Of a stretch of 64,000 nt of DNA, positions 44,056 through 52,224 are shown in pieces. Every line of letters begins with the position of its first letter. Positions within the stretch are counted from its first letter, which is position 1. Source of the stretch: Sulfurimonas sp. (lineage in GTDB: Bacteria; Campylobacterota; Campylobacteria; Campylobacterales; Sulfurimonadaceae); contig NZ_JBFHGL010000007.1 in NCBI RefSeq assembly GCF_041583195.1, forward strand, positions 1 through 64,000, in the 5' to 3' direction. The position numbers and the translations under genes are program-made. Under the pieces are notes generated by a model. It was not told the origin of the DNA, made no database searches, and saw only the letters and a program-made list of their open reading frames with translations.

Positions 44056-45627
44056 TTAAGAAGTAGTAAGCTCTCTTTTTAGCTCTTCCACATTTACTTT
44101 ATTTTTATCGCTTTGAACAAGTGGCAGAGATTTTTTATATATGATCTTACCTGGTATCATGTATGAAGCTAAATGGTTTTTAAGCTCAAACAGCATCTCT
44201 TTTTGAGCTATCTCGCTTTTAGCAGAGTAAACAAGTACGATCTCTTCTTCGATCTCTTCATTTGGGATCGAGAAAACAACGCACTGATCTATAAGCGGGA
44301 AGTTCTTTTTAACAACAGATTCAACTTCAAGAGGTGATACTCTAAAACCTCTTGTTTTGATCATATCATCACGGCGAGATACAAAGTAAAAATAATCCTC
44401 TTCATCTTTATACACATAGTCTCCTGAAGCTACAACTATCTCATCTGTAAGTTGCCCTTCTAAGTTTACTACATCTTTTAAGATCTGGATTGATTTGAAT
44501 CTTTGTTCATTTTCTTTTGGAGCATTCCAAAAGCCTTTATAGATATAACCACCTCTATGTATAAGTTCACCTACTTCGCGAGGTGCACACTCACGTCCTT
44601 CTTCATTTATAACGTAAAGCTCAACATCAGGGATAGCTTTGCCGATCGAGTCTGGTCTGATCTCTATCTGGCTTGGATCAAGGTAAGTTGAACGGAATGC
44701 TTCTGTAAGACCGTGCATAGAGTAAAATTTTGCATTTACAAATGTTTTCTTACAATCAGCGATCATCTTCTTAGTTACGTTTCCACCTGAAGACGTGATA
44801 GTTTTTAAATTCTCTAAAAGTTCACTGCTTGGTGTTCTTCCCATATCTTCATCAAAAATCTGTGTAATGTTGATTGGCATTAGAGGTAAAACTGTAACTT
44901 TATCATCTATGATGTGGTTGAAAAAATCATCCGGAAGAATAAAGCGGTGAAGTGCCAATGTTGCACGTCTGTAAAGACTGCAGAAGATCTGATTTAATCC
45001 ATAATCAAGATTAAAGATCAGAAGCCCGCTGATCACGTCATCTTCAGTAATATTTAGGTATTTTGTAACAACACGAGCCGAGTCGATTAGGTTTCTGTGT
45101 GAAAGAACTATACCTTTTGGAGTACCAGTAAGACCAAACGAATAAGTGATCACCGCATTGTCATGTCCGTTTATCTCACAAGAGTATGGTTTGTTATAGT
45201 ATTTGTAGATCTCATCAAACGACGGTATATCACTTGAAGTTGTCTCGTAAGACACTATATGACCATCAAAATTTATCTCTTCTATATTTTCTAACTTTAA
45301 CTTGTCAGTTATGATACATTTGATATCACAATCGTTTATTATGTACTCAACCTGTTCAGGCTTAAGCAACTTAGTAAGCGGAACTAAAACATAGTCAGTT
45401 GAAAGTATGGCAAGTATAGCTATAACCTGCTCAATTCCTTTGTTTGAGTAGATCCCTATGCGTGAATCTTTTGGCAGATCTAATTCACTTAGGTAATAAG
45501 CTACATGATTAACTTTAGTAAAAAGCTCAGAGTAACTAAGACTTTTATCTTTGTGAATTAAAGCAGTTTTGTCCGCATGTGTACGAGCAGAATCTTCTAT
45601 AAGTGTTCTTATACAGTTAATCGACAT
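44056..45627 (-). CDS. AMP-forming ligase of the ANL superfamily
   Basis: 523 aa. Adenylation motifs: SFGLTGTPKGIVLSHRN (P-loop, with Leu for the usual Thr), GDYVYKDEEDYFYFVSRRDDMIKTRGFRVSPLEVE (hinge region), and a C-terminal SDKNKVN with the probable catalytic Lys. FNLDYGLNQ puts an Asp where amino-acid-activating domains contact the alpha-amino group, and resembles the ligases associated with exosortase-A loci. It follows glmL by 3 nt. No carrier-protein domain. The substrate could be 3-methylaspartate or another amino acid (inference). Confidence 0.8.
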   Translation of the reverse strand: MSINCIRTLIEDSARTHADKTALIHKDKSLSYSELFTKVNHVAYYLSELDLPKDSRIGIYSNKGIEQVIAILAILSTDYVLVPLTKLLKPEQVEYIINDCDIKCIITDKLKLENIEEINFDGHIVSYETTSSDIPSFDEIYKYYNKPYSCEINGHDNAVITYSFGLTGTPKGIVLSHRNLIDSARVVTKYLNITEDDVISGLLIFNLDYGLNQIFCSLYRRATLALHRFILPDDFFNHIIDDKVTVLPLMPINITQIFDEDMGRTPSSELLENLKTITSSGGNVTKKMIADCKKTFVNAKFYSMHGLTEAFRSTYLDPSQIEIRPDSIGKAIPDVELYVINEEGRECAPREVGELIHRGGYIYKGFWNAPKENEQRFKSIQILKDVVNLEGQLTDEIVVASGDYVYKDEEDYFYFVSRRDDMIKTRGFRVSPLEVESVVKKNFPLIDQCVVFSIPNEEIEEEIVLVYSAKSEIAQKEMLFELKNHLASYMIPGKIIYKKSLPLVQSDKNKVNVEELKRELTTS

Positions 45628-45630
45628 TAC

Positions 45631-46812
45631 TTATCCTTTGTTTGCCAGTGTCCAAATTTTGTAATTTTTATCCATTACAACAGTCGGATTATGATCTGAA
45701 TTTAAAATCTTTTTGTAAAAAAATGAGATAATGTCAGCTACCTCATCATCATTTAATACTTTAGTGATACCGCCTGTTAAAACTATTGAATTTATAGCAA
45801 GAAGTTTTAGGTTTACATATGCTTGTTTATAGTGGCTCATTTTAGTAAGTACCAAGAAAAGAGCAAGCTGCATAAGCACTTTCAGCGCTTTCTCACTAGA
45901 TTCTTCAAAGATGTTTTCAGTAACTTTGAGGTGAGTTAGAAGCTCATATGTAAATTCGTTGTTTTGAGCTGCAAATATCAAAGACTCTTTTGACTTGTAA
46001 ACACCAAGCTTTTTAAATACAAGTCTGTCGTATTCATTCTCAGTCACTATGTTCTCATCTACAAGATCTTTTGAGTAGTGAATATCAGTTGTAGCCCCAC
46101 CGATATCTATTAGAATAAATGGATCTACAACTGAGAAGTTTGCATCTATTAATGGCAGAGTTTTATTCACTATGTACGGTGTAGAATAGATCTGATTTGT
46201 AGTTATGTCATAAAGAGATTTAATGTCCTCTTTACCCTCAATATCAGCTTGGTAAAGGTTTGTCAAATACTCTTTTAAATTCTCTTCAATAATATGTAGT
46301 TTGTTATCTATGATATTTGGAAGAACAACAAGATGTTCTATGTTTTTTGCAAGCTCTTCAGCTTCAAGCTCACTTCCAACATAAACAATGTTTGAATATT
46401 TTAGATTTTCCAAGTAGTTATATAAAGGCTTGCCAAATATACCACCCTTAGAGTTTATACCGCCTACAACTATAACTACATCTATCAGATCACTAGGAAG
46501 CGAATAGTCTTCTATGTTTTGATAAAGAATAGTCTCAATGATATTGATCCCTGAGTTAAAAGCGATGTTCTTCGCATACTTTAGAGAATAAGACTCTGTA
46601 AGACCGATGATTAGCGTGCTTAAACCACCGTTTGCAGATGAACAGATATATACGTCATCTTTATCAAAACTATTTATTGTATCACCGCATTTATACATAA
46701 GATCATCATGTATATCTTTGTTAAAATCACGAAAGTGCTGTTCTATGTTAGTTGGAGTTGCAACTTTAAAGTTTGTACTTCCTATATCTATTAAAAGTTT
46801 ATTTTGACTCAT
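45631..46812 (-). CDS. glmL: MutL/GlmL-type ATPase, putative glutamate mutase chaperone
   Basis: 393 aa of the actin/Hsp70-like ATPase fold. The N-terminal phosphate motif LLIDIGSTNFK (5-15) and second phosphate motif FILIDIGGATTDIHYS match the MutL (GlmL) family usually encoded between the two subunits of glutamate mutase. It is proposed to reactivate or assemble the B12 enzyme. It overlaps glmE by 4 nt (ATGA). Shorter than many GlmL proteins (about 460 aa). Confidence 0.8.
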   Translation of the reverse strand: MSQNKLLIDIGSTNFKVATPTNIEQHFRDFNKDIHDDLMYKCGDTINSFDKDDVYICSSANGGLSTLIIGLTESYSLKYAKNIAFNSGINIIETILYQNIEDYSLPSDLIDVVIVVGGINSKGGIFGKPLYNYLENLKYSNIVYVGSELEAEELAKNIEHLVVLPNIIDNKLHIIEENLKEYLTNLYQADIEGKEDIKSLYDITTNQIYSTPYIVNKTLPLIDANFSVVDPFILIDIGGATTDIHYSKDLVDENIVTENEYDRLVFKKLGVYKSKESLIFAAQNNEFTYELLTHLKVTENIFEESSEKALKVLMQLALFLVLTKMSHYKQAYVNLKLLAINSIVLTGGITKVLNDDEVADIISFFYKKILNSDHNPTVVMDKNYKIWTLANKG

Positions 46813-48173
46813 TGCATAATCCCTATATCGTGGATAATATCATTAACTATACTTGTTGTGTCTTTTGTAAGATCACATTTTGATTTTTCATACTCAAAAC
46901 ATCTATCAGGAATAGGCACATTTCCTCTTTTTATTATACGGATATTTTTGTTTGCATCGCGAATAGTTATCATCTCGTTGTGGTTGATGATGTGCGGTGA
47001 AAAAGGCACGTCAATAGTTCCGTTTTTAATAGAGTTAAATACTTTTCTCCAAAGAGTATCAGCAGGATCATTAAACACAGCTTCCATAATAGCTTCAACT
47101 TCTAAAGTTAGAATCTCTTCTTCTTCCTCATCTACTATATTTGGAAGACCGTTTAAAATTCCTAAAGTATACTGAGTATTTGCAACTGTTTTTGCATTTG
47201 CTTCTTTTGTCGGAATACCAGAAGCTTCTTCACGAGTTTTAGTAATTATTTTATCTGCTCCAACCATAGATGCAATAACCGTCGACATATTGATCAACTG
47301 CTCTGCAAAATCTTTGTTTGTAGGAAATGCCCCCATCCACTGGTGATACACTAAGTTGATTGTAGCATCACCGCAGTTGATTGACTCGGCATATTTTTTA
47401 GCCATCTTTCTTATAACATGCCCCATAACTATGTCTTGATTCATCGACCCTGTTTGAGAGAATGAAACAGAGAAAGATTTAACACCCTCTTCTAAAGACA
47501 GAAGCATCTCTAAAAGCTGGATAACGATCGTAATAGCAGGCGGAACAAGTGTAGCCGTTAGTGGTCCAAATGACTCACGGTTTATAGGCAGGTTTAATTT
47601 TGAATAGTTAGCACACACTTTTTCAACATACTTCCAGTAAAGAAAAGCCTTATCTAGAGGGAAGTTCTTTGAGTATGGTAAAAGGTACGTAATAGGTCCG
47701 CCCTCAATCTCAAAAATACCAGAAGCAATAGCAGTCTCGATCAGAAGTCTTGCATCAGGCGTACCGTGACGTAGACTTACCGGCTTGTTAAAATGAGTAA
47801 CCATCTTTCTAGTTGTGCGGTAACCGTGATTTACAAGCGGATAACCGTTTAACATGTCAACTTCACTCTCTTCACTAAGGCGTAACATCTTTTTAGCTGT
47901 AGCATAGTCGTTAAGACGTGTGTTAGAGTCGATCGTTAGTGGAAGTACATCTACGTTCGCATTTACAAAAAACTCATTTAGGGCAAACTGTTTTTTGTAT
48001 GTTGGGAATCCACCGCGCGGCTGAACCAGCATCTTTTTCTTTTGAGCAAAATGATGAGATATAAAAAGTTCTTTGTTTGCATTTTTTACAAACTCTTCAA
48101 CCTCTGCAAAGTCAAAGTTGTCTACATGTTCGTTTGAGAGGATTATTTCACGTTCTTCTTGTAGTAAACTCAT
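46809..48173 (-). CDS. glmE: Glutamate mutase epsilon (catalytic) subunit GlmE
   Basis: 454 aa TIM-barrel subunit of B12-dependent glutamate mutase (L-glutamate to threo-3-methylaspartate). The substrate-binding arginine claw is intact: Arg53 (QPRGG), Arg86 (DSNTRLN) and Arg135 (LRHGTPDARL). The base Glu157 (EIEGG), Tyr163 and Tyr167 also match Glu171, Tyr177 and Tyr181 of the Clostridium cochlearium enzyme at identical spacing (as I recall it). FHQWMGAFPT-like (YHQWMGAFPT) and GIPTKEAN are also conserved. It is therefore likely a true glutamate mutase. Overlaps glmS by 4 nt. Confidence 0.92.
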   Translation of the reverse strand: MSLLQEEREIILSNEHVDNFDFAEVEEFVKNANKELFISHHFAQKKKMLVQPRGGFPTYKKQFALNEFFVNANVDVLPLTIDSNTRLNDYATAKKMLRLSEESEVDMLNGYPLVNHGYRTTRKMVTHFNKPVSLRHGTPDARLLIETAIASGIFEIEGGPITYLLPYSKNFPLDKAFLYWKYVEKVCANYSKLNLPINRESFGPLTATLVPPAITIVIQLLEMLLSLEEGVKSFSVSFSQTGSMNQDIVMGHVIRKMAKKYAESINCGDATINLVYHQWMGAFPTNKDFAEQLINMSTVIASMVGADKIITKTREEASGIPTKEANAKTVANTQYTLGILNGLPNIVDEEEEEILTLEVEAIMEAVFNDPADTLWRKVFNSIKNGTIDVPFSPHIINHNEMITIRDANKNIRIIKRGNVPIPDRCFEYEKSKCDLTKDTTSIVNDIIHDIGIMQ

Positions 48174-48583
48174 GATGCTTGTCTCTCTTTTATGAACTCT
48201 TCTAAAGTATCAAGTCCCGTATTTAAATCTACTTGGTGAAATACCAGATCAAAACCGTAGTTTTTATACTTTGGAACTATTACGTCTGCATCTGCAGTAC
48301 CAACTACCAAGTTTCCACCAATCACCATTACAAGATCATCTAATGTTTTATACTTTGATTTTAGAAGTTTTACTTCACGTGCCCAACCCTCTGCCTCACC
48401 GTTAAGTGATGAGATCAGAAGTATATCTGCACCAGTTTCAACCGCTGCATCAAAAAACTCTTCAAGGTATGTGTTTACGCCTAAGTTAAACACCTCATAA
48501 CCTCTCGCATCTAAAGACAGTTCTATAAGTCTGTTTGCAACGACATGGATGTCGTTTCCAACTACGCCTGTTACTACTTTCAT
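48170..48583 (-). CDS. glmS: Glutamate mutase sigma (cobalamin-binding) subunit GlmS
   Basis: 137 aa B12-binding Rossmann domain. The base-off/His-on motif DxHxxG appears as DIHVVA (Asp11, His13): the Gly is replaced by Ala. SSLNGEAEG and IGGNLVVG match the other cobalamin-contact loops. First gene of glmS-glmE-glmL-ligase. No B12 riboswitch box is visible upstream. (This glmS is the mutase subunit, not the glucosamine-6-phosphate synthase of the same symbol.). Confidence 0.9.
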   Translation of the reverse strand: MKVVTGVVGNDIHVVANRLIELSLDARGYEVFNLGVNTYLEEFFDAAVETGADILLISSLNGEAEGWAREVKLLKSKYKTLDDLVMVIGGNLVVGTADADVIVPKYKNYGFDLVFHQVDLNTGLDTLEEFIKERQAS

Positions 48584-51045: not shown

Positions 51046-51351
51046 ATGAAAACACTTAACAAAGTTTTATTAGGACTAGCACTAATAGGTTCAATGACAA
51101 GTTTAGCTGCAGACGGTGCAGATATTTACAAAAAATGTGCCGGATGTCACGGAGTAAATGCAGAGAAAAAAGCTCTTGGTAAATCTCAAGTGATTAAAGG
51201 TTGGGAAGCTTCAAAAGTTATTACGGCTTTAAAAGGTTATAAAGACGGAACTTACGGCGGAGCTATGAAAGGTCTAATGAAAGGTCAGGTAGCTGCATTA
51301 AATGACGCAGATATTGAAGCTGTAGCAAAATACATAGAATCTAAAAAATAA
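51046..51351 (+). CDS. Periplasmic monohaem cytochrome c (c553-like)
   Basis: 101 aa. Signal peptide (MKTLNKVLLGLALIGSMTSLA), haem-binding CAGCH, and C-terminal Met ligand region (GAMKGLMKGQVAALNDADIEAVAKYI). Class I c-type cytochrome of the small c553 type, an electron carrier between periplasmic complexes. Strong GGAGGG ribosome site. Probably controlled by the adjacent two-component system. Confidence 0.92.
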   Translation: MKTLNKVLLGLALIGSMTSLAADGADIYKKCAGCHGVNAEKKALGKSQVIKGWEASKVITALKGYKDGTYGGAMKGLMKGQVAALNDADIEAVAKYIESKK

Positions 51352-51744: not shown

Positions 51745-52224
51745 ATGGACTTTTTTACAGCAGACATTTGTGACGAACATTTTGACAAAGTTATAACACT
51801 GAATCCGGATTTTAAAAACTATGGCGGTGCACTTAAATGTAAAGGTGAAGTTATAACGGTTAAACTAGATAAAAACAACTCTGAACTGGTAAAGCTTCTT
51901 CGTGATGAAGACGGAACAGGTAAAGTTGTAGTTGTAGATGTTAGAGAAGACTATTATGCCGTAGTTGGTGAAAACCTTATGAAATTTGCACATAAAAACA
52001 ACTATGCAGGGATCATTGTTAACGGATACGTACGTGATACTTACCAAATTAAAGATATTCCTGTTGCACTTTATGCACTTGGGACATGCCCACACAAATA
52101 CATACCTACAACCGAAGGTGAGCGTGATGTACGCGTAACATTCGGCGGTGCAAGTTTTGAAACTGGCGTTTACGTATATGCCGATATGGACGGCATAATA
52201 GTTACGGGCGGTCCTTTAGTTTAA
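51745..52224 (+). CDS. rraA: RraA-family protein (RNase E regulator homologue)
   Basis: 159 aa. Conserved TADICDEH at the start, KCKGEVITVK, GENLMKFAHKNNYAGIIVNGYVRD and GERDVRVTFGG near the end. Usual RraA length. E. coli RraA inhibits RNase E, while other members are aldolases (HMG/CHA type), so activity here is open; Campylobacterota generally lack RNase E. The 3' end overlaps convergent pyk by 23 nt. Confidence 0.86.
   Translation: MDFFTADICDEHFDKVITLNPDFKNYGGALKCKGEVITVKLDKNNSELVKLLRDEDGTGKVVVVDVREDYYAVVGENLMKFAHKNNYAGIIVNGYVRDTYQIKDIPVALYALGTCPHKYIPTTEGERDVRVTFGGASFETGVYVYADMDGIIVTGGPLV

Follow-up and report, generated by a model that had tools for sequence, protein, structure and literature searches.

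A candidate mobile module built on glutamate mutase that may lead to 2-oxobutyrate in Campylobacterota and marine Proteobacteria

A stretch of 64,000 nucleotides from Sulfurimonas sp. (assembly GCF_041583195.1, contig NZ_JBFHGL010000007.1, positions 1 to 64,000; hereafter the window) encodes a coenzyme B12-dependent glutamate mutase in a compact operon, glmS-glmE-glmL, that ends with the gene of an ANL-fold "ligase" (Table 1). A preliminary description of this operon had proposed that the rearranged amino acid is activated by the ANL enzyme and attached to another molecule; it overlooked a fifth gene, rraA-like, that strictly co-occurs with the mutase. The reading favored here, to which we give somewhat less than an even chance, is that these genes form a mobile methylaspartate module that ends in 2-oxobutyrate, with the role of the ANL protein unsettled.

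The core of the module would comprise rraA and the divergently oriented glmS-glmE-glmL-ANL operon. GlmS and GlmE (GlmES) would convert L-glutamate to (2S,3S)-3-methylaspartate, and GlmL would maintain the activity of the B12 enzyme. Subsequently, an aspartate-type aminotransferase would turn 3-methylaspartate into 3-methyloxaloacetate and regenerate glutamate. This aminotransferase would be of the AspC type and carried by the module in many Gammaproteobacteria and supplied by a housekeeping enzyme in Campylobacterota. The RraA-family enzyme would then decarboxylate 3-methyloxaloacetate, a beta-keto acid, yielding 2-oxobutyrate and CO2. All reactions after 3-methylaspartate are ones that we infer from the sequences. 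The net conversion of 2-oxoglutarate to 2-oxobutyrate and CO2 would equal an old route to isoleucine, the "glutamate mutase route," which reportedly rests on tracer work by Abramsky from 1962; we know of no gene set assigned to it. Its mutase, aspartate-type aminotransferase, and beta-keto-acid decarboxylase-type enzyme all have matches here. The "glutamate mutase pathway" to 2-oxobutyrate and isoleucine is recognized in PMC7476758, which cites Abramsky 1962.

The first step is supported by conserved residues. The overlaps of 4 nt at the glmS/glmE and glmE/glmL junctions and the gap of 3 nt before the ANL gene, as given in the preliminary description, were borne out by the coordinates of the open reading frames (ORFs), and profile matches identified the four genes. 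GlmS matches the methylaspartate mutase S model NF002612 above its cut-off (150 bits) and PDB entry 1be1 with E = 4e-18. Its Asp11 and His13, which belong to the cobalt-binding motif of the lower ligand, are invariant in 113 of 113 relatives. Throughout these relatives the motif reads DxHxxA, not DxHxxG, which at the level of sequence is a marker of this mutase subfamily. GlmE scores 384 bits with Met_asp_mut_E (PF06368) and aligns over 414 residues with the clostridial structure 6h9e (E = 2.7e-80). The arginine claw (Arg53, Arg86, and Arg135) and Glu157, Tyr163, and Tyr167, to which attention had been drawn before, are all kept and, together with His277, Lys312, and Glu316, show no variation among 120 relatives. 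Because the catalytic residues and the cobalt-binding Asp/His of GlmS are kept, GlmES likely converts glutamate to 3-methylaspartate, which agrees with the product assigned earlier. GlmL reaches 84 bits with PF13941 and 70 bits with the NCBIfam GlmL model, against a cut-off of 475; its gene sits between glmE and the ANL gene in nearly all loci. An Rfam scan of the window returned no riboswitch match.

The rraA-like gene lies 3.16 kb from glmS in the window, with unrelated genes in between, and adjoins the operon divergently in most loci. With a length of 159 aa, it is the sole further gene conserved across families, in 33 of 41 Campylobacterota loci. It was found in 40 of 40 mutase-positive and 0 of 40 mutase-negative Campylobacterota genomes, also where it is unlinked to the operon, and within the genus of the window in 7 of 7 mutase-positive versus 0 of 20 mutase-negative genomes. 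The ANL gene follows the mutase in the same panel with 39 of 40 versus 0 of 40 genomes. Fisher tests were applied to these counts, and the relatedness of the genomes makes their values optimistic. One small genome (G356, 97% complete assembly) possesses glmSEL and rraA and lacks the ligase gene, which is a single, modest datum. That an aldolase/decarboxylase is the tightest co-occurring extra gene points to a conversion of the carbon skeleton.

The RraA-like protein matches NF006875 above its cut-off and PF03737 with 119 bits. The RraA/HMG-aldolase family performs metal-dependent pyruvate-enolate chemistry, including the decarboxylation of oxaloacetate (PMC5065237). The protein of the module shares the fold family and the conserved Arg-Asp pair of the RraA/HMG-CHA aldolases (Arg97-Asp98, kept in at least 97% of 95 relatives) and is predicted to act as 3-methyloxaloacetate decarboxylase; its strict link to glutamate mutase is undescribed in the literature found. 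The NCBIfam label of the protein, "ribonuclease E activity regulator RraA," would instead make it an RNase E regulator and a mere passenger, so that only mutase and ligase constitute the module. This is very improbable in view of the all-or-none co-occurrence, which holds even without linkage; moreover, organisms that lack RNase E also possess the family, and the catalytic motif is present in most homologs (PMC5065237). An aldolase role in another step is unlikely as well, if less remote: RraA would make or split a 4-hydroxy-2-oxo acid, and the product of the module would be a branched amino acid or an intermediate of catabolism other than 2-oxobutyrate. The name-giving reaction of the family is the aldol cleavage of 4-hydroxy-4-methyl-2-oxoglutarate (PMC5065237), and co-occurrence is silent on the reaction. 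However, GlmE keeps all glutamate-binding residues, the transaminated product would already be a decarboxylase-type substrate, and no further conserved enzyme was found in the neighborhoods.

Table 1 Genes of the candidate module in the window.
Gene	Position	Strand	Length	Assignment
glmS	48170-48583	-	137 aa	B12-binding subunit of glutamate mutase
glmE	46809-48173	-	454 aa	Catalytic subunit of glutamate mutase
glmL	45631-46812	-	393 aa	Divergent short GlmL/MutL ATPase, probable mutase reactivase
ANL-fold "ligase"	44056-45627	-	523 aa	VinN-like 3-methylaspartate pocket, non-conserved A10 lysine
rraA-like	51745-52224	+		RraA/HMG-aldolase family, predicted 3-methyloxaloacetate decarboxylase; divergent from the operon

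The aminotransferase step is suggested by loci outside the Campylobacterota. In 27 of them, a gene for an AspC-type aminotransferase is convergent to rraA, mostly at less than 200 nt, by which the genes for mutase, aspartate-type aminotransferase, and decarboxylase-type enzyme are linked; the outer neighbors of these loci differ. The module aminotransferase is structurally closest to E. coli AspC-type aspartate aminotransferases and keeps the two arginines within their carboxylate-binding contexts. One gammaproteobacterial family carries the mutase in 3 of 60 genomes. All three possess the module-type aminotransferase besides the resident paralog, with 79-81% identity to the HTCC2143 copy, and no copy of more than 70% identity was found in 47 mutase-negative genomes of the family.

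Several points weigh against a route to 2-oxobutyrate. The substrate of RraA cannot be read from its sequence, Campylobacterota loci contain no linked aminotransferase, and the equilibrium of glutamate mutase favors glutamate. The route needs no ANL protein and leaves it unexplained, yet 39 of 40 genomes carry it with an invariant pocket. Threonine deaminase (ilvA) is also present, in 49 of the 50 Campylobacterota tested, irrespective of the mutase, and outside this phylum in 22 of 24 carriers. With ilvA nearly everywhere, no auxotrophy explains the module; the route would be an additional one and no simple replacement of threonine deaminase. For citramalate synthase, only weak homologs below the cut-off were found. 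In Colwellia maritima, a carrier of the module, the catalytic and ACT regulatory parts of ilvA are separated, which may reflect a sequencing error or a deregulated enzyme.

An ordinary methylaspartate fermentation or cycle, with methylaspartase encoded elsewhere in the genome, is disfavored by the sequences and very improbable. The clostridial fermentation and the haloarchaeal cycle have GlmS, GlmE (and GlmL) in common with the module, and a GlmE gene of Gemmobacter clusters with those of methylaspartase, CoA-transferase, and CoA-ester lyase. The module, in contrast, clusters with none of the three, and genes of the mesaconate branch do not occur in its neighborhoods. A methylaspartase search of 26 carriers gave no full match and only weak, partial ones to the enolase superfamily, the best of which reach 40 bits over about 79 residues. 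In the genome of the window, the search yields just a weak match of 79 residues inside a 314-aa ORF of the enolase superfamily, so the absence of methylaspartase noted earlier stands.

The ANL protein (206 bits with PF00501) combines a conserved pocket with a variable catalytic lysine. VinN-type enzymes are characterized by Asp 235, a bulky aromatic residue at 236, Ser 301, and an arginine in a shortened β13-β14 loop (PMC11253843); the VinN pocket residues were taken from this review and verified on the PDB sequence. The ANL protein shows all of these features. Its Asp208, Tyr209, Ser280, and Arg312 align with Asp230, Phe231, Ser299, and Arg331 of VinN and are invariant in 112 relatives. Asp208 takes the position that binds the amino group in amino acid-adenylating enzymes, as had been pointed out. 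The pocket loop is ungapped and of equal length compared to a VinN homolog, at an overall identity of just 24%. An AlphaFold model (mean predicted local distance difference test score, pLDDT, of 82, low at residues 307-314) finds VinN with 3-methylaspartate (3wv5) as its top structural match with Z = 42.7, although several further ANL enzymes trail by no more than 2 Z units. The ligand is concluded from the pocket to be 3-methylaspartate or a very similar compound.

The A10 lysine is a key residue of adenylation and highly conserved in acyl-CoA and aryl-CoA ligases (PMC8388817). It is present in the window copy as Lys510 and in 55 of the 112 relatives. The other 57 carry glutamine, arginine, glutamate, leucine, or other residues at this position, and 14 relatives contain no lysine at all between 505 and 511. 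Asp403 and Arg418, which contact the ATP ribose, are invariant, and the P-loop is altered to SFG-hydrophobic-T/S-G. In the genome of the window, a single carrier-protein domain was found, which is AcpP-like and leaves none to spare. The neighborhoods contain no stand-alone carrier protein or pyridoxal phosphate (PLP) decarboxylase; for the decarboxylase, this result covers the neighborhoods alone. A dedicated carrier protein was rejected, as the number of carriers per genome does not follow the presence of the mutase. Because of the variable lysine, the altered P-loop, and the one carrier domain, it is doubtful that the ANL protein adenylates its ligand in the ordinary way and loads it on a dedicated carrier. 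As the lysine is not conserved, the family is not filed among the proven adenylating enzymes, and the protein is probably accessory and does not catalyze the defining step. It would bind 3-methylaspartate and either activate it slowly or serve as a regulator or sink that depends on ATP and methylaspartate.

The main rival to the 2-oxobutyrate reading retains activation and attachment and is possible but the less probable of the two. Like VinN, the ANL enzyme would treat 3-methylaspartate as a beta-amino acid and adenylate it at C4; a signal or small metabolite would arise by transfer to CoA, AcpP, or an amine, and surplus methylaspartate would be removed through RraA and the aminotransferase. 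Besides the pocket, the structural match, and the invariant ATP-ribose residues, this is favored by vicenistatin biosynthesis, in which 3-methylaspartate is activated by a VinN-type enzyme encoded next to glutamate mutase (PMC11284099); a vicenistatin-like cluster (L078) was also found. The lysine replacements, the altered P-loop, and the single carrier domain argue against it. In addition, the neighborhoods harbor no conserved transferase, condensation, or export gene; a check of Campylobacterota for conserved neighbors, as advised in the preliminary description, returned the rraA-like partner and none of these. The ligase-free genome, which keeps glmSEL and rraA, and the RraA partner itself further leave the claim of activation and attachment unsupported in its original form.

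In the vicenistatin starter-unit pathway (mutase VinH/VinI, VinN, PLP decarboxylase VinO, and carrier VinL), a mutase likewise stands beside an ANL enzyme with a matching pocket. The module neighborhoods differ in that they lack the carrier, decarboxylase, and polyketide synthase and contain GlmL and the RraA-family enzyme instead, and in that the ANL lysine is not conserved. The closest NCBIfam family is the exosortase-A ligase TIGR03098, which is encoded with the decarboxylase TIGR03099 and a carrier (L071, L072) and shares the EAFRSTYLDP loop. Its pocket reads DAG/T versus DYG/S here, so that two of four positions differ, and it has no mutase and other partners. Membership of the ANL protein in TIGR03098 was rejected, with 442 bits against a cut-off of 592 and no decarboxylase neighbor. 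The exosortase-A set of ligase, PLP decarboxylase, and carrier mirrors VinN/VinO/VinL, and the VinO-like protein of the vicenistatin-like cluster has TIGR03099 as its best match; the analogy suggests that an amino acid bound to a carrier is decarboxylated in exosortase-A clusters, too. Two plasmids bear further mutase genes. On that of Methylobacter sp. YRD-M1 (L077), genes for a B12-binding protein, asparagine synthetase A, and an EamA-type exporter accompany a divergent gene resembling that of glutamate mutase, possibly a methylasparagine pathway. On that of Streptomyces sp. NBC_01216 (L075), GlmS/GlmE occur with a lantibiotic dehydratase and an AMP-binding enzyme as well as a carrier protein and an ATP-grasp protein, a combination that matched no described cluster.

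A literature search found no paper that links glutamate mutase with the carrier genera, and activation of 3-methylaspartate only in macrolactam and other peptide or polyketide contexts. The earlier statement that no such pathway is described in Campylobacterota therefore holds as far as the literature goes, but the module is not limited to this phylum, and vicenistatin sets a precedent.

The mutase E subunit was detected in 57 of 397 sampled Campylobacterota genomes, representing 20 of 68 genera, and the order glmS-glmE-glmL-ligase is almost invariably kept in about 40 neighborhoods of the phylum. A scan of a genome collection with GlmE of the window as query returned 214 relatives, of which the best 80 were used for locus counts. 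glmE, glmL, and the ligase gene occur together in 75 of these 80 loci; given this recurrence in both sets, the operon is not a product of chance. Titles place 51 of the 80 outside the Campylobacterota. Marine Gammaproteobacteria predominate among them, next to some Betaproteobacteria and a single Rhodothermales bin, although some of these loci come from metagenome bins and could be mislabeled. The GlmE copies of the 51 loci are 85-93% identical to that of the window, and rraA is present in 48 of the 51. The outer flanks vary between loci carrying the same five genes, and in both the GlmE and the ligase tree the proteobacterial copies are nested within campylobacterotal diversity, beside Sulfurimonas-type sequences. 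The simplest reading of the nesting and the differing flanks is that the module was transferred out of the Campylobacterota as a unit.

Other neighbors are clade-specific. In Arcobacteraceae, an OvoA-like gene (ovothiol synthesis) lies a few genes past rraA (L083, L086-L089, L091), separated from it by a small gamma-glutamylcyclotransferase-like ORF and a 740-aa ORF, and small cytochrome c genes, at times in tandem, are found 3′ of the ligase gene (among L031-L070). A cytochrome c homolog is also encoded in the window (51046-51351). In Sulfurimonas-type loci (L042, L043, L044, L049, L050), a gene for a DctP-like solute-binding protein of tripartite ATP-independent periplasmic (TRAP) transporters is close to rraA. 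Owing to this restriction, the OvoA-like, cytochrome c, and TRAP genes were rejected as general members of the module. The B12 synthesis marker CobS, which is present in the genome of the window, does not track the mutase and was likewise dismissed as a correlate.

A stronger form of the proposal can be offered as a tentative possibility, with a likelihood well below even: the module may be the complete mobile gene set of the orphan glutamate mutase route, with an ANL protein that keeps its 3-methylaspartate pocket, no longer relies on the near-universal lysine, and serves in a capacity not known for ANL enzymes, for example as a partner of, or sink for, the B12 mutase that depends on both ATP and methylaspartate. 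B12-dependent glutamate mutase is mainly associated with fermentation and the synthesis of antibiotics. Here, it is tied to a five-gene unit spread through free-living bacteria of marine and sulfidic habitats. The tracer-era route to isoleucine would thereby become genetically testable, and the ANL protein would provide a natural test of whether this fold works without its catalytic lysine. For an RraA protein usually annotated as RNase regulator, the module suggests a metabolic role.

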